Source: Candidatus Levyibacteriota bacterium (GTDB taxonomy: Bacteria > Patescibacteriota > Microgenomatia > Levybacterales > UBA12049). From it: a stretch of DNA of 49,022 bases. This document shows, one piece after another, positions 14,624 to 44,983 of the stretch. The notes beneath the pieces were generated by a model. That model saw nothing but the letters and a program-made list of their open reading frames with translations, had not been told where the DNA came from and did not search any database. The stretch's first letter is position 1. Each line of letters opens with the position of its first letter. Both the position numbers and the translations under genes were made by a program. The stretch is from positions 1 through 49,022 of the forward strand of contig JAUSEW010000018.1 in NCBI GenBank assembly GCA_030651475.1, written 5' to 3'.

Positions 14624-16348
14624 CTATTGTTTTTTGAAGATCATCACTTTCGGGTGGTCATATACAGTGAAGGATTCGTCAGCGTTTTGGTCATTGATTG
14701 GAATATCCAACAGCGGAATTGTCGGTAGATTTTCAAATTCTGCTACCTTTTCGTATCCCAAGCGCCCGTTAAAAAGATCTTTATAATATTTTGTGGTTAT
14801 TGGATAGCAATGATAAGGAGGGAATTTTTTGCAATCAGTAAGTTTTTGTAACGGTACATATAAGCGGTTTGAGGCGATGATAATATAATCAATCTCACCA
14901 AGGTTTTTATTTATTATTTGCCATTTTTGAAAAGTGTCAGGATCATAAAGAGGAAGGGTTATGGTTTTGTATGGCGATCCTCCAAGAGGCAATTGGTCAT
15001 CCCAATGCTCAACAGCGATAGTTTTATCCAAAGGTATATTTTGGTAAATCCAATTAGATGCAAGAACTCGAGTATTAGGTTTTGTATAAATATTCATAAA
15101 AGCCAAGGGCCAAACGAGTAAGAGAATTATGAATAATGAATTAAGAATTATAGATATAGACGGATTTATTTTTAGTTTTTCTTTAACTAATGAATGTAAC
15201 TTCCAAACTAGAACTGCGGCAAAAAGAGAAAAAAGAGGATATAAGGGAAGCATGTAGCGCATCCATCCAACTGCAAATTTCCCTACAACGAAGAAATAAG
15301 TCCAAAAAAAGACTACCAAAATCAATTCCTGTGCCCACTTAGTTTTCTTCTCTTTTCTTATGGCAACAATAGTGAAATATAATGCTCCGACAAAAGACAC
15401 AATTGCTAAAATTGGTCCTTGTCCCCATAAGAAAATATTTTTTAACTCGTAAAAATATGGTATTTTTCCGACGTATTGTAGAGTATAGGGAAATGTGAAA
15501 GCGTCATAAGTCATCTGCCGCTGTTGTATTGTTTGCTGCCAAAATTCACGAAAATCTATAAGAGCATACGGCTCGACAATTATAAAGACGACGATTGCAG
15601 ATATGGCAACGACGACACCTTTTAAGATAAGCGTTTTAATAAATTTCGGTATATGAGGAAACCATATTTTGGGATGATGAAGATTTTTTAAAAAAATCAG
15701 GATGAAATCTATTGCCAATGCGAAACCGATGGATGCCAAGATTACCGTAGCGCTTATTTTTGTTCCTAAAGCAAAACCAAATGCAGCGCCTGTTATAAGA
15801 GCGTTACGTATCGTTGACTTCTCATAAAAATTTATAAGAAGATAAAGGGTGAGGAAAATAAAAAAATTTAAAAGCGTGTCAACCGCATAGAAATGAGAAA
15901 GTTGAATAGGAAGAACGCTTATCGCATAAAAGAAAGCAGAAAGATTTGCAATATATTTATTGAATAATTTTTTGCCCAAAAGGTAGATTATAAATAGAGT
16001 TCCAATATCAAAAAATGCAGAAATAAAGCGGCCGACAAGATTAATCTTTTCATACTGCGCGAACAATAGACTGCTATTGCTTATAAAAGTTCCGCTTAAT
16101 TTTAATAAATACAAGGGTAAACTTCCGTAGGCAAAAAAATGAGGATTCAAGGGGCTATTTACGGATAGAAATTCTTGTATAGATATCGGCATTTCAAGAG
16201 GTACGGTAAAAAGAGTTATCGCCCTTTCATCTGGATGCAGATGAAATCCCTGATCCCAATTAAGATCATACAATCTAAGAATAAATCCAAGAGCAAGAAT
16301 AACGACCAGAACGTAATTAATTTGTTTTATATGCCAACTTTTAATCAT
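14624..16348 (-). CDS. GT39-like membrane glycosyltransferase
   Basis: FILRLYDLNWDQGFHLHPDERAI, multi-TM; paralogous to the next CDS. Confidence 0.75.
   Translation of the reverse strand: MIKSWHIKQINYVLVVILALGFILRLYDLNWDQGFHLHPDERAITLFTVPLEMPISIQEFLSVNSPLNPHFFAYGSLPLYLLKLSGTFISNSSLLFAQYEKINLVGRFISAFFDIGTLFIIYLLGKKLFNKYIANLSAFFYAISVLPIQLSHFYAVDTLLNFFIFLTLYLLINFYEKSTIRNALITGAAFGFALGTKISATVILASIGFALAIDFILIFLKNLHHPKIWFPHIPKFIKTLILKGVVVAISAIVVFIIVEPYALIDFREFWQQTIQQRQMTYDAFTFPYTLQYVGKIPYFYELKNIFLWGQGPILAIVSFVGALYFTIVAIRKEKKTKWAQELILVVFFWTYFFVVGKFAVGWMRYMLPLYPLFSLFAAVLVWKLHSLVKEKLKINPSISIILNSLFIILLLVWPLAFMNIYTKPNTRVLASNWIYQNIPLDKTIAVEHWDDQLPLGGSPYKTITLPLYDPDTFQKWQIINKNLGEIDYIIIASNRLYVPLQKLTDCKKFPPYHCYPITTKYYKDLFNGRLGYEKVAEFENLPTIPLLDIPINDQNADESFTVYDHPKVMIFKKQ
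15124..15151. repeat. 7-bp tandem repeat
   Basis: gaattat gaataat gaattaa gaattat; encodes IILNSLFII. Confidence 0.75.
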
Positions 16349-17987
16349 TTTTCATTTTTTTAAAGATAAAAACAGTTGGTCTATCGAATACATTTGCTGT
16401 TTCCTCGAGTGAAGAGACCGGATTTCCTAGATAGGTTATCTTGCAAAAAATATCACAAGGTGTTTCATAGACTTTTCGATAGCCTAATTTATTATTAAAC
16501 AATAAACTATAAAATTCATTTCCATTTTTGAATTTTTGTTTATTTAAAAGGCGAGTTTTCATAATCCGTTGACTTGGAAGAATTATATAGTCAGTTTTAT
16601 GAAAAAGAGAATAAAGCTCACCTAATTTATTATTATCAGGTTGTTCAAGGTCATAAAAATTAAATAAAGTAATATTTGGAAAAAATGAATTAAAGGGAAG
16701 TATTCCCAAATCGTAAACTTCACTTACGATGAGTGCGCTACTGGGAATATTTTGCTTTGCAAAGTTAACAGCAGATATCCTAGCATCACCACTCATAAAA
16801 GCAGTTTTAAAATAAGAGAAGGCAAAAATTATCGTAGACATACCTAATATCAGAAATATAATTTTAAAAAAAATCCTTATGGCATTTATTTTTACTTCTA
16901 ACAAGTTTGTTATTGATAAGGAGATTATAAGATAGATAAATGGTAAAGTCGGCATCATATATCTTGTCCACTTAGCGAATAAAAATGCTTGAGGAAGGAA
17001 TAGTATTAAGTAGCAAGTATTAAGTATTAAGTATTGGGGATTTTTAGTTTTTATTCCTTTGAGAATCAAATAAAAAAACGAGAAAATAAAAACAATTGTT
17101 AAAGCTGGATTTAGAAGAAAAGGGTAAATTTTTGTGAATTGGAAAATAATAGGAGCAGAATTAAAAAATTCACCAGTGTAGAATACGGGTAGAGTTCCCA
17201 ATGCGACTGATGATTCGTATTTTAGGCTGGATAAAAATGACCCAAAATCCAAAAATGCGAAAGGAGAAGTTAAAAATAATATAATTATTGCCGGAATAAA
17301 AACTATTAATGAATCAACGATTAAACCCTTTATTAGAGGTAATGGTTTTAGTCTATTTTTAAGATTATTTATTAAAACTAAAAATAGAATATATAAAAAA
17401 ATAAAACCTCCTGATATTTTCGTAGATAATAAAAGCCCAAAAATAATACCTATTATCAAAAGCAGTTTCTTGTTGCCCGAGTTTAAAAATAATAAAGAAA
17501 GATAAAAGATAACTAACGATAAGAATGTTATCCACGTTTCAAATGTAGAGAAATGGGCGAATTGAATAAGCCCAATACTAAAGGTAGCCAAAAAGGCGGA
17601 AAAAATTCCTGTTTTTTTATCTTTTAATGTTTTTCCTGTAATGTAAATTAGGGGAATAATTAACAGAGAAAGAAGAGCAGAATAAAATCTTCCTATAATA
17701 ATTGATTCTTCAAAAGATGCTTGGGTTATAGGTTTTAAAGAAAAAATTACATTGATTATTATAGTACTAAAATAATTTAAGTATATTGGAAAATTTCCGT
17801 AGGCAAAAAAATGAGGATTCATTTGTAGAGGAAAATTAAGTTGAGAAGCCGCAGAAGCAATATTACGTTCATCCGGGTGGAAATAAAAAGGAGCGCCCCA
17901 ATTAAGATTATAAAATCTTAAAAACCCGCCAATTAATATTAATAAAATTATTATTAATGTTTCCTTATTTTTTAAGAAATTTTTCAT
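16341..17987 (-). CDS. GT39-like membrane glycosyltransferase (tandem paralogue)
   Basis: FLRFYNLNWGAPFYFHPDERNI, NPHFFAYGNFPIYL, multi-TM. Confidence 0.75.
   Translation of the reverse strand: MKNFLKNKETLIIILLILIGGFLRFYNLNWGAPFYFHPDERNIASAASQLNFPLQMNPHFFAYGNFPIYLNYFSTIIINVIFSLKPITQASFEESIIIGRFYSALLSLLIIPLIYITGKTLKDKKTGIFSAFLATFSIGLIQFAHFSTFETWITFLSLVIFYLSLLFLNSGNKKLLLIIGIIFGLLLSTKISGGFIFLYILFLVLINNLKNRLKPLPLIKGLIVDSLIVFIPAIIILFLTSPFAFLDFGSFLSSLKYESSVALGTLPVFYTGEFFNSAPIIFQFTKIYPFLLNPALTIVFIFSFFYLILKGIKTKNPQYLILNTCYLILFLPQAFLFAKWTRYMMPTLPFIYLIISLSITNLLEVKINAIRIFFKIIFLILGMSTIIFAFSYFKTAFMSGDARISAVNFAKQNIPSSALIVSEVYDLGILPFNSFFPNITLFNFYDLEQPDNNKLGELYSLFHKTDYIILPSQRIMKTRLLNKQKFKNGNEFYSLLFNNKLGYRKVYETPCDIFCKITYLGNPVSSLEETANVFDRPTVFIFKKMKND
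17002..17036. repeat. 7-bp tandem repeat (agtatta)x5
   Basis: agtatta agtagca agtatta agtatta agtattg; encodes QYLILNTCYLIL. Confidence 0.9.
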
Positions 17988-37050: not shown

Positions 37051-38540
37051 AGCTTTTCGGTAACTTTATATTCAAGTCTTTTCCCAAGCATAAGTTGAGT
37101 ATGGGAAATAAGAGCTGGAATTACGGAAAGGAAAAAACTTACAACAGGCAAAAGTATGAACTCCAAAGGAAAAAGAAACTCTCTGATTTTGGGTAAGGAA
37201 TGATTCTTTGGCCTATTGCGAAAATCAATAGCAATCATTATGAGGAACGCGAACGTACAAAGAGTCAGTATAGATCCTGCCAAACTTGCAAGACTATATC
37301 CAAGAGTTGTCCTTTGGAAAACAGGGTTTACGAAAGCGATTATGTTGGCAGAAACTGTTAAGATGAACCAATTGACCGGCCAAAGGAAATGATCGAGTAA
37401 AACGTTGTAGAGAAGTATAGTTTTTCTGAAAAAGGGGACATTGGGAACAGTAAACCACCATTTTATAAACAGAGGGTCATCGGATACTCCCCAAGACCAT
37501 CGTCTTTCCTGTTGATACTTATTTTTTAAGCTTCTGATATAATTATAAGATAAGGGAGCATCCATAGAAGTTTTTAAGAAAATTGGCTCTACGAAGACTT
37601 GTCCTCTCAATTTATAGAAAGCTTTGAAGAAAATTCTGTAATCTTCAGGAATTACATCACAGTCCCAAAAATCGATTTTCTTAAGAAGAGAAAAAGACAA
37701 GGAATAAGTAGAATTAGCAATTAATCTATCTTTTTGGACAAGAACACCTGTTCTCCAGAGGCTGCCAAAAAATGCAATGATTCTAATTGGAGCAGGAACA
37801 TTCCAGAAATTATTGTAATTTACATTAGCTGATTGCCAAAATTTATTATATCGGTTAGTGTCGTTTAAAAATTTGAAAGCCAAATAGGAGAAATATTGCT
37901 TATCAAATATAGAATCAGCATCTACAGATGAAACAGTCGCAAAGTTTATATCAATAGGCCCATTCTCAATTAGCTTTTTGTAAACAATACGGCCTGCAAA
38001 TGCCTCATTTGAAGATTTTCCTTTTACTTCGTTTGGAACATCAGGATGATATGTCGCAAAAATTTGTCCAAAATTTACTTTAAATTCATCAATAAGAGTA
38101 TTTGCTTTTATTATTGCATCTTCTTCTCTTTTTTCCATAGCTAGAACTACAATAATTTTCCTTTTTGGGAAGGTTTGTGATGCAATAGCCTTGAGTGTTT
38201 GACGCAATTTACTTACGGTCTCTTTGTAGTTTGGAATAATTATAACATGGTAAACTCGATTCCAGTTTTTTAATGTTTTTGTTCTTTCCAACCAATCTAT
38301 GCCTTCAGCTTCTCTTATTTTTCTAGAGGCGATAAATGCTGTTGCTGATAGGGAAAAAGATTTATACAGCCAATAAATATCAAAAAATACGATAAAATAG
38401 GCAACGATGTAGGGTATAATTAAAGATCCCCAAACAGGAAATAGAATAAGCGCCCAAGAAACAAAACCGGGAAGTAATTCCAAAGACCTTTTGGTTTTGA
38501 TTGGATATCTGCTAAAAACAGTCTGAAAAAAGTTTGTCAT
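37047..38540 (-). CDS. GT2-like membrane glycosyltransferase
   Basis: VYHVIIIPNYKETVSKLRQTLKAIASQTFPKRKIIVVLAMEKREEDA; TVSSVDADSIF; QQERRWSWG (QxxRW). Confidence 0.8.
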   Translation of the reverse strand: MTNFFQTVFSRYPIKTKRSLELLPGFVSWALILFPVWGSLIIPYIVAYFIVFFDIYWLYKSFSLSATAFIASRKIREAEGIDWLERTKTLKNWNRVYHVIIIPNYKETVSKLRQTLKAIASQTFPKRKIIVVLAMEKREEDAIIKANTLIDEFKVNFGQIFATYHPDVPNEVKGKSSNEAFAGRIVYKKLIENGPIDINFATVSSVDADSIFDKQYFSYLAFKFLNDTNRYNKFWQSANVNYNNFWNVPAPIRIIAFFGSLWRTGVLVQKDRLIANSTYSLSFSLLKKIDFWDCDVIPEDYRIFFKAFYKLRGQVFVEPIFLKTSMDAPLSYNYIRSLKNKYQQERRWSWGVSDDPLFIKWWFTVPNVPFFRKTILLYNVLLDHFLWPVNWFILTVSANIIAFVNPVFQRTTLGYSLASLAGSILTLCTFAFLIMIAIDFRNRPKNHSLPKIREFLFPLEFILLPVVSFFLSVIPALISHTQLMLGKRLEYKVTEKL

Positions 38541-39331
38541 AGGTTAAAAATAACACTGGCGTTTCTCGTAGTTTGATCTTCAACTAAAGAAAAAGAAACA
38601 CCTTTTATTTCGGCAATTTTTGCTGCCACAATTATAGCATAAGAAGGTATGTTTAGGCTACTTCGGTGAGGCTCCGGGGTAAGGAAAGGACTGTCTGTTT
38701 CAACTACGATTCTATTTATGGGGGCATAGCTTACTAAATCTTTTAACTCCGTATTCTCTCCTGGCGCAAAACCTTGATATGTAATATTGCCGTCGAAACC
38801 AACATAAAATCCAAAATTAAGCACTTGTTTTAAAAAGTCGATATCTCCTGACATACAGTGGAACATTCCAGGAGGATTTAAAAGATATGATTTATGGCTC
38901 AAAAGTATCTCCAAAATATCTTTTCCCGCATGGCGATTATGAATTTGCAGGGGTAATTTCAGCTTGAAAGCAAGTTCTACCTGGGCAATAAATACTTCCT
39001 TTTGCAATTTTTTATCAACTATGCTGTTGGATTTATAACTGTAGTAATCCATCCCACATTCGCCAATTCCGACAACTTTTGGATTTTTTGTAATTTTTTC
39101 TAAGTCTTTAAGCCAGTTATCTTCCAGTTTGTCGGCATGGTGCGGGTGGACGCCAACGATTGCATATAAATTGTCATATTTTTGAGCCAGTTCTACTGCT
39201 TTTTGGCTCGAATCTATTTTCGTTCCGACATTTATAATCTTTTCTACGCCGGCTTTTTTTGCTTTTTTAATGACTTCGCCATAGTTTTTTTCGAACGAAT
39301 GAAAATTAAGATGGCAATGTACATCTATCAT
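38537..39331 (-). CDS. tatD: TatD-family metal-dependent hydrolase
   Basis: MIDVHCHLNFHSF; IVGVHPHHAD; VGIGECGMDYY; VVETDSPFLTPEPHR. Confidence 0.93.
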   Translation of the reverse strand: MIDVHCHLNFHSFEKNYGEVIKKAKKAGVEKIINVGTKIDSSQKAVELAQKYDNLYAIVGVHPHHADKLEDNWLKDLEKITKNPKVVGIGECGMDYYSYKSNSIVDKKLQKEVFIAQVELAFKLKLPLQIHNRHAGKDILEILLSHKSYLLNPPGMFHCMSGDIDFLKQVLNFGFYVGFDGNITYQGFAPGENTELKDLVSYAPINRIVVETDSPFLTPEPHRSSLNIPSYAIIVAAKIAEIKGVSFSLVEDQTTRNASVIFNL

Positions 39332-39427
39332 AGTAGTATTATACGATATATACTCTATAATTATGGTAAGAAATCCTTGACAAAGTTATCGTGTGGGGAC
39401 TATCATAAGTTTTTCTAGAGGGTATTT

Positions 39428-42082
39428 ATGAAGGTAAACTTCTTCTTAACAAGATATATTGACAAATTGTCTTCTTCTATTTTTAAAATATCCGTAAGTA
39501 GCGTTAAGCCCAAAATAAATACCACGTCGCAGCTATTTGAAGATGCTTATAGAAATATAAATGAATTATTTCTAGAATTGCACACGTCTACAGAAGGTTT
39601 AATAAACGGACAAGGCAGAAAATTGCTGAAACAGTATGGATTAAATGAGGTAGCGCATGAGAAAAGAAAGCTTTGGCCGATACGTCTTCTAGCCACTTTT
39701 AATAATCCATTAGTTTTTCTTCTCTTATTTTTGGCAATAATATCTTTGATTACAAAAGATATCAAGACAGCGGGCATTATATTAATAATGGTTCTTTTAA
39801 GTGTGTTAATAAGATTTTTCGAAGAGAATCAGGCCTATAATGCTGCGGAAAGTTTAAGGTCTATGGTAAGAACAACGTGTACGGTAATAAGAAAAGGTAA
39901 GCCTAAAGAGATTGATCTTAAGCTAGTTGTCCCCGGAGATATAGTTAGGCTTTCGGCAGGGGATCTTGTTCCTGCAGACGTAAGGATGATTCAGAGTAAA
40001 GATTTATTCGTTAATCAATCATTGTTAACAGGAGAATCTTTGCCTGTTGAGAAGCATGCAGTTTTGCCCAAAGAAAAAGAACAGGATAATATATTTGAAT
40101 TACAAAATATGTGTTTTATGGGTACCAATGTTGAGAGCGGAGTAGCAACAGCCCTTGTTTTGCATACAGGGCGGAATACTTATTTTGGAAGCCTAGCGCA
40201 AAGCATAGTTGGACAGAGAAGTCTTACGAGTTTCGACAAAGGAATAGACCAATTTACATGGCTTATGATCAGATTTATGTTGGTTATGGCTCCGATTGTA
40301 TTTCTTATTAATGGATTGGGTAAAGGCAATTGGTGGGAAGCATTACTTTTCGCAATATCTGTTGCTGTCGGTTTAACTCCAGAAATGCTTCCGGCAATAG
40401 TAACAGTTAATCTTGCGAAAGGCGCAATTGCCATGGCAAAGAAAAAAGTTATAGTAAAAAGATTAAGCGCAATCCAAAACTTTGGAGCTATGAATATTCT
40501 TTGTACGGATAAAACAGGTACCCTTACACAGAATAGAATAGTTTTAATAAAAAACATCAATATTAGCGGAGAAACGGATTACAATATTTTACACCACGCA
40601 TATGTTAATAGTTTTTATCAAACAGGTTTCAAGAATATTTTGGACGAGGCGGTAATTAAGTACACGAAATCAAAAAATCTAAATTCCATAGGGAATACGT
40701 ATGAAAAGATAGACGAGTTGCCTTTTGATTTCATAAGAAGACGCCTTTCGGTTATCGTTAAAGACCAGAATGGCAAAAGGTTTTTAATCTGTAAGGGTGC
40801 AGTTGAGGAAGTTATGAGCATTTGCGAAAGATACGAATTGCATAAAACGCTTTATAAATTATCAGATGAAAATCGTAAGAAAATAAAATCTATGAATGAA
40901 GAATTTAGTCTTGATGGATTTAGAGTCATAGCTGTTTCCTATAAAGAAATAGATAGCAATCGTAAGCATTATAGTAAAGAAGATGAGGAAGACCTGACGT
41001 TTTTAGGCTTTATGACATTTTTCGATCCGCCAAAAGAAACAGCAGCTGCAGCGATTGCCAAGCTTCAGTCGCACGGAATAACAATAAAGGTCTTAACTGG
41101 GGATAATGAGCTTGTAACCAGAAAAATTTGCAGCGAAGTAGGATTGCAAGTTCAAAATTCCTTACTGGGACCGAAAATTGACAATATGACAGATAAGGAA
41201 TTGGAAGATGTTGTGGATGAAACTACAATTTTTGCCAAACTTTCCCCAGACGACAAAAAGAGAGTAATTAAAGCTTTACAGCGGAGAAAACATGCTGTTG
41301 GATTTTTAGGGGACGGGGTAAATGATGCGCCGGCCTTAAGGACAGCGGATGTTGGGATATCTGTAGATACGGCAGTTGATATCAGCAAAGAATCAGCCGA
41401 TATTATTCTTCTCGAAATGAGCTTAATGGTTCTTTCCGATGGCGTTATAGAAGGCAGAAAGGTTTTTGGTAACATTATCAAATATATTAAGATGGGAGCT
41501 AGTTCTAGCTTTGGAAATATGTTTAGCGTGATTGGAGCTAGTATATTTTTGCCGTTTTTGCCGATGATTCCGCTCCAGCTTCTGACTAATAATTTGCTTT
41601 ATGATTTTTCTCAAACTGCAATACCAACAGATAATGTTGACAAAGAGTACTTAGACAAGCCAAGAAAATGGGAGATAGCAGACATCAGGAGATTTATGAT
41701 ATTTATTGGTCCTATAAGCTCTATTTTTGATTACGTAACATTTGCTATAATGCTTGTCTTGTTTCACGCATGGAACAATCCTTCTTTATTTCAAACAGGT
41801 TGGTTTGTGGAATCGCTTCTTACGCAGGTTCTTATTGTCCATGTAATTAGAAGCAGAAAAATTCCGTTCATACAAACGTTGGCAAGCAAATCTTTAATTG
41901 CCACAACTGTTATTATTATGGCAATAGGAATTTCGCTCACGTTATTACCTGTGGGTCGTTTGTTTAGTTTCGTAAGATTGCCATTATTGTACTGGCCGTT
42001 ATTAGCATTAATTTTACTTTGTTATATTACGCTTACCCAGATAGTGAAGACTTGGTATATCAAAAAATTCGGCTATAATTAA
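39428..42082 (+). CDS. P-type ATPase, Mg2+-transporting (MgtA-like)
   Basis: VPGDIVRLSAGDLVPADVR; LTGESLPVEKH; NILCTDKTGTLTQNRI; KVLTGDNELVTRKI; FLGDGVNDAPALRTADVGISV. Confidence 0.92.
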   Translation: MKVNFFLTRYIDKLSSSIFKISVSSVKPKINTTSQLFEDAYRNINELFLELHTSTEGLINGQGRKLLKQYGLNEVAHEKRKLWPIRLLATFNNPLVFLLLFLAIISLITKDIKTAGIILIMVLLSVLIRFFEENQAYNAAESLRSMVRTTCTVIRKGKPKEIDLKLVVPGDIVRLSAGDLVPADVRMIQSKDLFVNQSLLTGESLPVEKHAVLPKEKEQDNIFELQNMCFMGTNVESGVATALVLHTGRNTYFGSLAQSIVGQRSLTSFDKGIDQFTWLMIRFMLVMAPIVFLINGLGKGNWWEALLFAISVAVGLTPEMLPAIVTVNLAKGAIAMAKKKVIVKRLSAIQNFGAMNILCTDKTGTLTQNRIVLIKNINISGETDYNILHHAYVNSFYQTGFKNILDEAVIKYTKSKNLNSIGNTYEKIDELPFDFIRRRLSVIVKDQNGKRFLICKGAVEEVMSICERYELHKTLYKLSDENRKKIKSMNEEFSLDGFRVIAVSYKEIDSNRKHYSKEDEEDLTFLGFMTFFDPPKETAAAAIAKLQSHGITIKVLTGDNELVTRKICSEVGLQVQNSLLGPKIDNMTDKELEDVVDETTIFAKLSPDDKKRVIKALQRRKHAVGFLGDGVNDAPALRTADVGISVDTAVDISKESADIILLEMSLMVLSDGVIEGRKVFGNIIKYIKMGASSSFGNMFSVIGASIFLPFLPMIPLQLLTNNLLYDFSQTAIPTDNVDKEYLDKPRKWEIADIRRFMIFIGPISSIFDYVTFAIMLVLFHAWNNPSLFQTGWFVESLLTQVLIVHVIRSRKIPFIQTLASKSLIATTVIIMAIGISLTLLPVGRLFSFVRLPLLYWPLLALILLCYITLTQIVKTWYIKKFGYN

Positions 42083-42084
42083 TC

Positions 42085-42276
42085 CTATTTTTCCGAAACT
42101 GCCGCATACAAATGTCCCAATAGACTTAATCCAATCAGGCCTAATCCCCAGCGTAAAGGATGAATGCCCACTATCGGGCTTGCTATCAGAACGCCTATTC
42201 CTATGCCTCCGACTGCATGAACGAAGGAATTGTACGTGACGTGTTTCTTAAAATAGTTTGTTATTTTTTTATACAT
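42085..42276 (-). CDS. Small membrane protein
   Basis: 63 aa, two hydrophobic segments; preceded by AGAAGGAGGTGAAAAATG (strong Shine-Dalgarno). Confidence 0.55.
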   Translation of the reverse strand: MYKKITNYFKKHVTYNSFVHAVGGIGIGVLIASPIVGIHPLRWGLGLIGLSLLGHLYAAVSEK

Positions 42277-42314
42277 TTTTCACCTCCTTCTAATATCAGG
42301 ATATCACAAGTAAA

Positions 42315-42360
42315 GGTTAAATTCTTGGAAATAGGGGTTTTTGGGAGGTGATTTTGGGAC
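42315..42360. repeat. Direct repeat DR1 (remnant of metG 3' end)
   Basis: 46 bp, 42/46 identical to 43545-43590; reverse strand reads PKITSQKPLFPRI-stop. Confidence 0.85.
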
Positions 42361-42385
42361 AGTAGAATTTGCTCTGATCTTAAAT

Positions 42386-42411
42386 ACTTCAATGATTTAA
42401 ATCATTGAAGT
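42386..42411. promoter_or_regulatory. 26-bp perfect palindrome ACTTCAATGATTTAAATCATTGAAGT
   Basis: Read directly; abuts the stop codon of the TrpR-like gene. Confidence 0.85.
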
Positions 42412-42863
42412 CAGAATGCCTTTTTATTTTTTTCTCTATGCTTATCAACTTCTTGTTTTAAGTAACGCCAAACTGTTCCGCCTTTTCTTGCTTTAGTTGG
42501 AAAAGATAGGACTTTTGAAACTGATTCGTCTATCATATCAATTAACTTTTCTTCCTTGAGAATTTTATTAAGAAGATTTCTGTATCCCTCGCTTCCGTAT
42601 CGAATTGCCATATTCACGGATGTAATAGTAGGAGCGCTTACTCTAATAATTTTTTGAATAGTTCGGTAGTCATAATCTTTTTGCAGAAGGAGTGCTATTG
42701 TGAGTCTTTTTGCTAGCATAATTTTTTCTGTAGGCGTTAGGAGATCAGAGATAAATTGATCTGCTTCTCCTTGAGTATGAATCTTAACTAAGCTTTTTAG
42801 AAAGATTTCAAAAATTCGATCAGCAATCTCTTTTGAAATAGGGTACTTGGAAACTTGCGTCAT
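42411..42863 (-). CDS. TrpR/YerC-YecD-family DNA-binding regulator
   Basis: FISDLLTPTEKIMLAKRLTIALLLQKDYDYRTIQKIIRVSAPTITSVNMAIRYGSEGY. Confidence 0.85.
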   Translation of the reverse strand: MTQVSKYPISKEIADRIFEIFLKSLVKIHTQGEADQFISDLLTPTEKIMLAKRLTIALLLQKDYDYRTIQKIIRVSAPTITSVNMAIRYGSEGYRNLLNKILKEEKLIDMIDESVSKVLSFPTKARKGGTVWRYLKQEVDKHREKNKKAF

Positions 42864-42869
42864 ACAATA

Positions 42870-42893
42870 CTTTAATGATTTAAATCATTAAAG
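42870..42893. promoter_or_regulatory. 24-bp perfect palindrome CTTTAATGATTTAAATCATTAAAG, candidate autoregulatory operator
   Basis: 7 bp upstream of the TrpR-like ATG; overlaps a putative -10; reverse-strand TTGACA at 42916-42911. Confidence 0.75.
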
Positions 42894-43043
42894 CAGATAT
42901 GCTTGTATTTTGTCAATAAGCATTTCTTTAATGGGAAATTATATCTTGGAAAAAGAAGGATTTGGAAAGAAATTTTATTCACGCTCAACCCCAGGGGTCG
43001 AAAACCAATATACAGTTAAGCAAAATAAAAGAAATCCTATAGT

Positions 43044-43072
43044 TTGACTTGAAGGTTTTATTACAGTATAAT
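43044..43072 (+). promoter_or_regulatory. Promoter TTGACT-N17-TATAAT
   Basis: TTGACT 43044-43049, TATAAT 43067-43072; ATG at 43080. Confidence 0.7.
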
Positions 43073-43079
43073 TCCTCTT

Positions 43080-43550
43080 ATGAATTTGAAAGAAAGATGG
43101 GGAGTTTTAACAGAAGTCAAAACAGCTCCTGTGCCAAAGTTAACTCCAGAATTAATGATAAAGATTAATGCAGTCTACGAGAAACTTTCTTCTAGGAAAG
43201 GATTTCCTACTAACTACTGTGGTCCAGCTATGCAGGAATTAAGAAGGTTGGGATTTCAAGGTATTAGAGGATTTTTCCAAGTTGGTAGATCTGGGGATTT
43301 AGATTTACTTCTGGATCATTCTCATGATTGGGCAGAGGATGCAGGTGGGAAAATTATAGACCTTACAGCAGCACAATATAATAGAGAGAAGTCCTTAGGA
43401 GCAGTTATACCATCTGGAGTTTTGATAATAGATAAAGAGAACCCTTTATATGAAAGATACATAATACTCGAAAGACTTCCAACGAGACCTTTATTCCCTA
43501 CGCCAAAGGACGTATTCTCAAAATGGAAAGTAGTTTTGCTAGGAGGTTAA
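43080..43550 (+). CDS. Papain-like/transglutaminase-like cysteine hydrolase candidate
   Basis: NYCGPAMQEL (C47), DHSHDWAE (H82), KIIDLTAAQY (D94) as a possible Cys-His-Asp triad. Confidence 0.5.
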   Translation: MNLKERWGVLTEVKTAPVPKLTPELMIKINAVYEKLSSRKGFPTNYCGPAMQELRRLGFQGIRGFFQVGRSGDLDLLLDHSHDWAEDAGGKIIDLTAAQYNREKSLGAVIPSGVLIIDKENPLYERYIILERLPTRPLFPTPKDVFSKWKVVLLGG

Positions 43551-43590
43551 ATTCTCGGAAAAAGGGGGTTTTGGGAGGTGATTTTTGGAC
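43545..43590. repeat. Direct repeat DR2 (functional metG 3' end)
   Basis: Encodes PKITSQNPLFPRI-stop of metG; matches DR1. Confidence 0.85.
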
Positions 43591-44983
43591 CTTTAAATTG
43601 TTCTTCGATTTTTTCTGCGGTTTCGGGTAAAAATGGTTCGAGAAGCACTGCAATTTCCTGAATTTGATCAACTGCATGGGAAAGTATAGTTTTTAATTTT
43701 GGAGAATTTTGTTTTGCCAATTCCCAAGGCTTTTCGTTGTTGATATAGCGGTCAAGTTCTGTAATTTTGGTCCACACGAAAGAAAGAGCATCATTAAGAC
43801 GGTACTGCGAAAAGCTTTCAGAATATTCTTCAACAGAAATTAAGTGGCTTGAGGTTTTACCTGCTCCTTCCATCTGGCGGTAATTTGAAGTTTCACAAAG
43901 TTTTGCAACGCGGGAAATTAAATTTCCCAGTCCATTTGCCAGATCGGCATTATAAGCTTGCTTAAGTTTTTCTTCCGAAATATCACTATCGTTTGTAAGA
44001 TTGGTATATCTTAAAAGATAATATCGTACTGCATCTGCTCCATATTTTTTAACCCAATCGGTTGGCCTAATAATATTTCCCAATGATTTGCTAATTTTTC
44101 GTCCGTTAAGATTTAAAAATCCATTTACAAGAATTGTTTTTGGTAGTTTGATATTTGCAGATTTTAGCATCGCAGGCCACAAGAGAGCATGCCATCTCAA
44201 ATTGTCTTTTCCTAAAATATGTACATCTGCAGGCCAAAATTTCTCAAACAATTTTTTATTTTCCAGAAATCCTACGCCTGTTAAATAGTTTGTTAAAGCA
44301 TCAAACCAAACGTACATAACTTGTTTTGTTTCATTGGGAATCGGAACTCCCCAGGTAAAGTTAGATCTTGAAATTGGAATATCTTTTATATTTTTGGCAA
44401 ACTCTAACATTTCGTTTGCTCGGTGTTGGGGAAAAATAAAATCCGGGTTATTCTTAATGTGCTTAATTAGAAAATCTTTGTATTTGGACCATTTGAAGAA
44501 ATAATTTTCTTCAGTTATTTTTTTAATTTCTAGGTTTGGGTGAAAAGAGCATTTGCCATTTTTTAAATCCGAATCATCACAATAAGCTTCGCATCCTTCG
44601 CAATAAAGACCGCTATATTCGCCAAGATAAATATCTCCATTTTCATCAACTCTTTTCCAAATTTCTTGAGCAACTTTGGCGTGATCTTCATCTGTAGTTT
44701 CTATAAATCTGTCATAAGAAATATTTACAGAATCTTGTTGTTCTTTATCAGTTGCGGCAATTTTTCTTACGAACTCCAAGGGAGATATGCCGGATGCTTT
44801 TGCAGCTTTTTCTGCTTTTTGTCCATATTCATCAGTACCGGTAAGAAAGAAAACGTTATCTTTGCCAAGCAGTATGCGATTGTATCTGGCCAAAACATCC
44901 GCAGCTATTTTTTGGAAAGCATGGCCAATATGAATAGTATCGTTAACGTAGTCGATGGCTGTTGTGATGTAAAATTTATTCAT
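43547..44983 (-). CDS. metG: Methionyl-tRNA synthetase
   Basis: YITTAIDYVNDTIHIGHAFQKIAADVLARY; FLTGTDEYGQKAEKAA; GRKISKSLGNIIRP (KMSKS-type). Confidence 0.96.
   Translation of the reverse strand: MNKFYITTAIDYVNDTIHIGHAFQKIAADVLARYNRILLGKDNVFFLTGTDEYGQKAEKAAKASGISPLEFVRKIAATDKEQQDSVNISYDRFIETTDEDHAKVAQEIWKRVDENGDIYLGEYSGLYCEGCEAYCDDSDLKNGKCSFHPNLEIKKITEENYFFKWSKYKDFLIKHIKNNPDFIFPQHRANEMLEFAKNIKDIPISRSNFTWGVPIPNETKQVMYVWFDALTNYLTGVGFLENKKLFEKFWPADVHILGKDNLRWHALLWPAMLKSANIKLPKTILVNGFLNLNGRKISKSLGNIIRPTDWVKKYGADAVRYYLLRYTNLTNDSDISEEKLKQAYNADLANGLGNLISRVAKLCETSNYRQMEGAGKTSSHLISVEEYSESFSQYRLNDALSFVWTKITELDRYINNEKPWELAKQNSPKLKTILSHAVDQIQEIAVLLEPFLPETAEKIEEQFKGPKITSQNPLFPRI

Follow-up and report, generated by a model that had tools for sequence, protein, structure and literature searches.

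A stranded copy of the metG 3' end beside inserted genes in a Patescibacteria genome, best read as an allele-exchange scar

Gene content of the metG–tatD interval

The window, by which we mean the whole 49,022-nt stretch of DNA analysed, comes from a 0.91-Mb draft genome of Patescibacteria in 36 contigs (G000 in the comparisons), and the named relatives of its metG belong to Candidatus Levybacteria and Daviesbacteria. We find that metG is separated from tatD by an insert that holds a second, detached copy of the metG 3' end. The features are listed by position, with strand in parentheses where one applies.

38537–39331 (minus), tatD, the immediate next gene after metG in relatives whose junction is empty (neighbourhood comparison)
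39332–43546, the whole insert between metG and tatD, a gap of 4215 nt compared with 4–61 nt in G011, G007, G062 and G072
39428–42082 (plus), P-type cation ATPase gene within the metG–tatD interval (PF00122, E = 1e-44), missing there in relatives
42085–42276 (minus), 63-aa ORF just beyond DR1 within the metG–tatD interval, missing from that interval in relatives
42315–42360 (minus), DR1, the stranded copy of the metG 3' end (PKITSQKPLFPRI-stop), 42/46 identical to DR2
42361–42381 (minus), degraded extension of the DR1 homology to metG, frameshifted by a 1-nt gap in the alignment
42386–42411, palindrome ACTTCAATGATTTAAATCATTGAAGT at the 3' end of the TrpR-like gene
42411–42863 (minus), TrpR-like gene of the YerC/YecD type, 150 aa (PF01371, E = 7e-16; TIGR02531)
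42870–42893, matching palindrome CTTTAATGATTTAAATCATTAAAG, 6 nt upstream of the TrpR-like start
43080–43550 (plus), 156-aa ORF from the ORF list, family not assigned, convergent with metG
43545–43590 (minus), DR2, the live metG 3' end (PKITSQNPLFPRI-stop plus 2–3 nt)
43547–44983 (minus), metG, methionyl-tRNA synthetase, 478 aa (TIGR00398 and PRK12267 matches)
43634–43948 (minus), metG codons 346–450, the C-terminal (anticodon-binding) domain, exchanged as a block in relatives (identity profiles, AU tests)

DR1 and DR2 are identical at 42 of 46 positions in direct orientation, while the runner-up among the 46-mers of the window reaches 28/46 and simulated windows reach at most 27. Without gaps the repeat is 56 nt long at 86% identity, and with one 1-nt gap allowed the homology on the DR1 side spans 42314–42381, which leaves 4 nt before the palindrome that starts at 42386. 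The mismatches over the last 14 codons are CCC/CCA, AAA/AAC (K/N), CTA/CTT and CCA/CCG, three of the four synonymous, and no metG lies in front of DR1. The initial annotation had described the duplicated 3' end, the mainly synonymous differences and a weak similarity that runs past DR1 and stops near the palindrome; sequence, coordinates and codon comparison agree with the first two, and the third is real, extending to 42381 with a frameshift inside it. Between the repeats it had placed a TrpR-like gene, which the PF01371 and TIGR02531 matches bear out, and a papain-like ORF, a label that finds no family match: the 156-aa ORF has no match in Pfam, NCBIfam, PDB or PADLOC and a PHROG match at chance level only, with weak relatives in G074, G071 and G070. 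The stop of this ORF overlaps the metG stop by 4 nt, and the PF08264 match in the window metG covers residues 384–476. A second long repeat in the window (16106–16149 and 17778–17821; 44 nt, 86%) was considered and rejected, being a motif conserved between two paralogous membrane proteins encoded side by side.

Recurrent insertion next to metG in relatives

In relatives, the gene order on one strand is metG, tatD and then a glycosyltransferase gene, and the metG–tatD gap at empty junctions is 4–61 nt (e.g., G011, G007, G062 and G072); G072, which has the closest metG (79% identity), has an empty junction with a gap of 61 nt. Since metG directly precedes tatD in these genomes, the insert in the window is the whole of 39332–43546, wider than the DR1–DR2 segment, and it contains the 156-aa ORF, the TrpR-like gene, DR1, the 63-aa ORF and the P-type ATPase gene. 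The earlier suggestion of an insertion at the metG tail therefore holds in that a segment was inserted and the tail is duplicated around it, but not in its extent, which also takes in the 42085–42276 gene and the ATPase gene; the empty site had been expected as metG followed by the 42085–42276 gene, an arrangement not found in relatives, where the empty site is metG–tatD.

Where both genes could be located, about half of the family genomes have a filled junction, with inserts of several hundred nt to 8 kb whose cargo differs from genome to genome (GNAT, NUDIX, laccase-like, SAM synthetase, DUF2079 and aspartyl protease genes). The metG–tatD junction is thus an insertion hotspot for unrelated cargo, and two of the other inserts also have a duplicated tail (G017 and G076). 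About ten inserts, on either strand, share the 4-nt overlap with the metG stop.

When every metG tail is compared with the interval downstream of it, strong copies appear only in G000, G017 and G076, so that stranded tails occur in two further genera besides the window, each with different cargo. The G017 insert consists of aspartyl protease and DUF5678 genes and ends in a tail copy of 34/40 nt, beyond which other genes follow; that of G076 is a single NUDIX gene with a tail copy of 26/27 nt that runs straight into the tatD start region. A degenerate tail pattern searched in 73 genomes recovers metG ends and the three stranded copies, with 3-mismatch matches elsewhere in G036, G027 and G076, and its reversed-pattern control gives 2 matches in the same 73 genomes. 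Against a background of 901 gene tails from the loci retrieved, each compared with up to 4 kb of downstream sequence, high-scoring downstream copies are found for 3 of 111 metG tails and 0 of 790 other tails (Fisher p = 0.0018, to be taken as a guide, as the test is post hoc to the metG cases and counts related genomes). This recurrence in three assemblies, with other cargo, bears on an assembly artefact in which a metagenome contig fuses two strain alleles: the genome is indeed a 36-contig draft, but the two copies share no long identical word and hence are not an assembly overlap, and we regard such a fusion as exceedingly improbable.

Most filled junctions have no stranded tail. In G063 the NUDIX gene overlaps the metG stop by the same 4 nt as in G076, with no stranded tail, and G003, a congener of G063, has an empty junction, from which it follows that one cargo can occur both with and without the scar.

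The initial annotation had offered a mobile cassette that brings a replacement 3' end, as elements do at tRNA genes, and integrative elements are known at the 3' ends of housekeeping genes, SGI1 at trmE being one example (discussed in PMC8409611). Here, in the manner of SGI1 at trmE or of integron cassettes, the metG 3' end would be an attachment site for a cassette with a replacement tail, moved by a recombinase encoded elsewhere. Three independent inserts bounded by direct-orientation metG tails, a live metG that is intact every time and a hotspot at the junction are what site-specific integration would give, and the likeness to SGI1 at trmE is that foreign DNA sits at a conserved gene 3' end, the end is duplicated and the live gene stays intact. 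SGI1-type elements carry an integrase and a fixed core site, and neither is found here in the listed cargo families or the tail tests. No integrase or transposase is among the 25 families listed of the 62 matched by 71 cargo ORFs from more than 30 genomes of relatives, and family searches give no recombinase match for the two genes between DR1 and DR2. The insert ends have no sequence in common in a shared-motif search of 44 intervals; the tail has no excess of synonymous conservation in sets of 90–127 metG genes, where it ranks 177 and 279 among 466 windows. The repeat length is not fixed (about 68 nt in G000, 40 nt in G017 and 27 nt in G076), nor are the boundaries constant around a core, and a second tail is absent from most inserts. 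The tail pattern is absent from viral contigs, where the TrpR-like and 156-aa proteins also have no relatives. A site-specific element is less likely than the exchange of metG alleles, and we consider it, also in the form with a trans-acting recombinase, rather improbable.

Mosaic metG genes and a probable route of capture

Allele recombination, the second alternative of the initial annotation, is favoured by the history of metG itself. The family contains two classes of metG catalytic part, with 69–79% and no more than 58% identity to G000, respectively; the class of the window is also found in G072, G007, G068, G070, G071, G074, G010 and G011, and the two classes alternate within genera g8, g11 and g33. 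Congeneric pairs G070/G071, G072/G071, G072/G074 and G081/G082 are 76–81% identical up to codon 340, fall to 51–57% over codons 346–450 and recover to 74–84% over codons 461–478, while pairs G070/G074, G031/G089, G003/G063 and G064/G065 have no such dip. G010 and G092, of the same genus, have the converse pattern, with a catalytic part 55% identical and a C-domain 84–86% identical. By the AU tests, genus g62 forms a clade in the catalytic part (98) and is rejected for the C-domain (p = 0.0003), and genus g11 is rejected for the catalytic part (p = 1.6e-12) and grouped for the C-domain. A single history for the catalytic part and the C-domain is rejected, and metG is a mosaic.

The identity profiles place the C-domain breakpoints near codon 345 and between the C-domain and the last ~20 codons, and the dip with recovery in the tail, together with the AU tests, places crossovers next to or inside the tail. 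The family mean identity of the tail is 57%, compared with 51% for the C-domain, so the tail is somewhat conserved as protein and its identity is inflated accordingly. A homologous recombination tract inside the anchor gene is thus found in relatives, and is only weakly indicated for the window (G000/G072, p = 0.09). Exchange of the C-domain is separable from cargo capture: G063 and G076 share cargo and do not share the C-domain. We give a low probability to the metG tail being a dedicated recombination hub, in which an integrase-free or trans-acting process would exchange the MetRS C-domain and cargo with the tail as a short target.

The reading we consider reasonably probable is that the cargo came with a metG allele, through homologous recombination anchored in metG and an illegitimate join at the far end, which stranded the resident tail. 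An incoming fragment from a relative would have carried the 3' part of metG, or all of it, and its downstream genes, namely the 156-aa ORF plus the TrpR-like gene between its palindromes, and would have entered probably by natural transformation. The fragment would have paired with the resident metG by homology, while its far end, immediately beyond the TrpR unit's outer palindrome, would have been joined without homology at a point ~68 nt from where the resident metG ends. The metG brought in, intact, would have become the live gene that ends in DR2, and the old tail would have been left beyond the captured genes, with one base lost since. DR1 would then be the 3' end of an earlier metG allele, left stranded, at the same moderate confidence as the single event of which it is a part. 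That capture and stranding took place in one event, how the DNA entered and which copy is the older are inferred. The three remnants are as similar to each other and to the tails of other genomes as to their own live tails, and with cross-genus similarity this high neither copy can firmly be called resident.

A recombining anchor, foreign genes past its stop and an old 3' remnant beyond them are what homology-facilitated illegitimate recombination (HFIR) predicts, and non-homologous cargo with a resident-type remnant beyond it is found in the window (DR1) as well as in G017 and G076. The host genome encodes a protein of the ComEC family (PF03772, E = 7e-51), a family tied to DNA uptake, and in Saccharibacteria, another class of Patescibacteria, natural transformation leads to homologous integration (PMC10633639); DNA uptake is plausible because ComEC is encoded and Saccharibacteria are transformable. 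HFIR has been described in naturally transformable Acinetobacter, Streptococcus pneumoniae and Pseudomonas stutzeri (cited in PMC5361080 and PMC2884548), and we infer that our case resembles it, since one homologous anchor beside a non-homologous join would place foreign genes next to a conserved gene and need no recombinase. It differs from those studies in being read from natural genomes, with putative joins and donors, and in having a tRNA synthetase gene as anchor.

Displacement of Vibrio T6SS effectors and of Rhs C-termini has been accounted for by an HFIR-like route (PMC5361080), and there, as here, a new 3' module lies on a conserved upstream anchor and the old 3' end becomes a downstream orphan. 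Those orphans are useful, as an immunity gene or a toxin tip, whereas the orphan here consists of 14 codons from the end of a housekeeping gene, of no use to the cell and with no relation to the cargo. HFIR is also a proposed origin of the small variable segments of E. coli (PMC2884548); these, and dimorphic loci, are likewise small non-mobile inserts between conserved genes, ~10% or more of them flanked by direct repeats, but in our case what is repeated is the working 3' end of an adjacent gene, and it recurs at a single locus in different genera. In our best reading, the feature is an allele-exchange scar on a housekeeping gene, a known kind of process in a new setting. The initial interpretation is partly supported, and its allele-recombination alternative is the better one.

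Two other histories of metG would leave the same repeat. In a two-step merodiploid route, a second full metG would have been inserted alongside the first with the captured genes between them, and the older copy would have been deleted save its last 70 nt. Both the alternation of the two metG classes at this locus within g8, g11 and g33 and the differences in DR1, which with three of four synonymous partly resemble coding divergence, fit this route; however, every family genome searched has one metG in a search at E = 1e-70 and none has two, so that a retained tandem duplication is not seen, and there is no second complete or long partial metG and no remnant longer than about 70 nt in any interval examined. 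We consider the merodiploid route unlikely. Alternatively, the tail could have been duplicated once in an ancient ancestor, with repeated cargo swaps by tail–tail recombination since. That the three remnants match each other as well as their own live tails, and that the three genomes have a similar tatD (71–73% to G000), speaks for a common origin, but the non-coding 27-nt remnant of G076, 26/27 identical to its live tail, looks recent, the neighbours on the far side differ (tatD; the 63-aa gene with the ATPase gene; an FtsX-like gene) and the remnant is absent from most related genera, which makes this history very improbable.

The locus offers a legible scar of gene capture, with a known anchor gene and several independent cases to compare, in a lineage that has been studied mainly through metagenomes. 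An essential tRNA synthetase swaps its anticodon-binding domain en bloc among lineages of genus rank and keeps its last ~20 codons, a pattern that suggests short, conserved gene ends serve as recombination anchors in Patescibacteria. A search for such scars at all conserved genes could yield a map of gene acquisition by these small genomes.

TrpR-like genes, palindromes and dispersed motifs

TrpR-like genes in the family have perfect palindromes (arms of at least 6) on both sides at 14 of 33 loci, compared with 2.6% per side in the control; the loci include the window (42386–42411 and 42870–42893), L069, L070, L071, L072, L107, L109–L112, L080, L086 and L087. In nearly all 14, the two palindromes of a locus have a common core, and this core differs between loci (TTTAAA, TTCGAA, ACGT or ATATAT). 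The core of the window unit is found elsewhere in its genome at one 1-mismatch site only, besides the two ends of the unit. Repressors of the TrpR family recognise palindromes of ~20 bp and often regulate their own genes (PMC9413887), and the upstream palindrome is therefore probably an operator. With a matching palindrome downstream, the pairs look as though every protein came with a paired operator of its own, or as though the unit were a cassette. At least six relatives have a TrpR-like gene beside metG or tatD, on varying sides and strands and above random expectation, at the following positions.

L098, 3054–3503
L099, 3352–3795
L100, 2956–3228
L101, 1883–2332
L102, 6338–6769
L103, 2118–2534

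SAM synthetase genes also recur at the metG–tatD junction, as 5 of the ORFs scanned in L098–L157. The sequence GCTTCCGACCT, present in G076 and G080, was considered as an insert end and rejected, being common to only these two of 44 intervals. In the G074 interval (L121 3011–3412) a small gene looks tandemly repeated, as ORFs of 66 and 60 aa that are encoded opposite to metG. The motif GCTTCCGACC lies near insert ends in three relatives (L147 at ~3105, L156 at ~3266 and L144 just past the metG stop) and is possibly a small dispersed repeat; in G079 it extends as CCCAGGGGTCG, and ACCCCAGGGGTCG is present in the window too, at 42988–43000.
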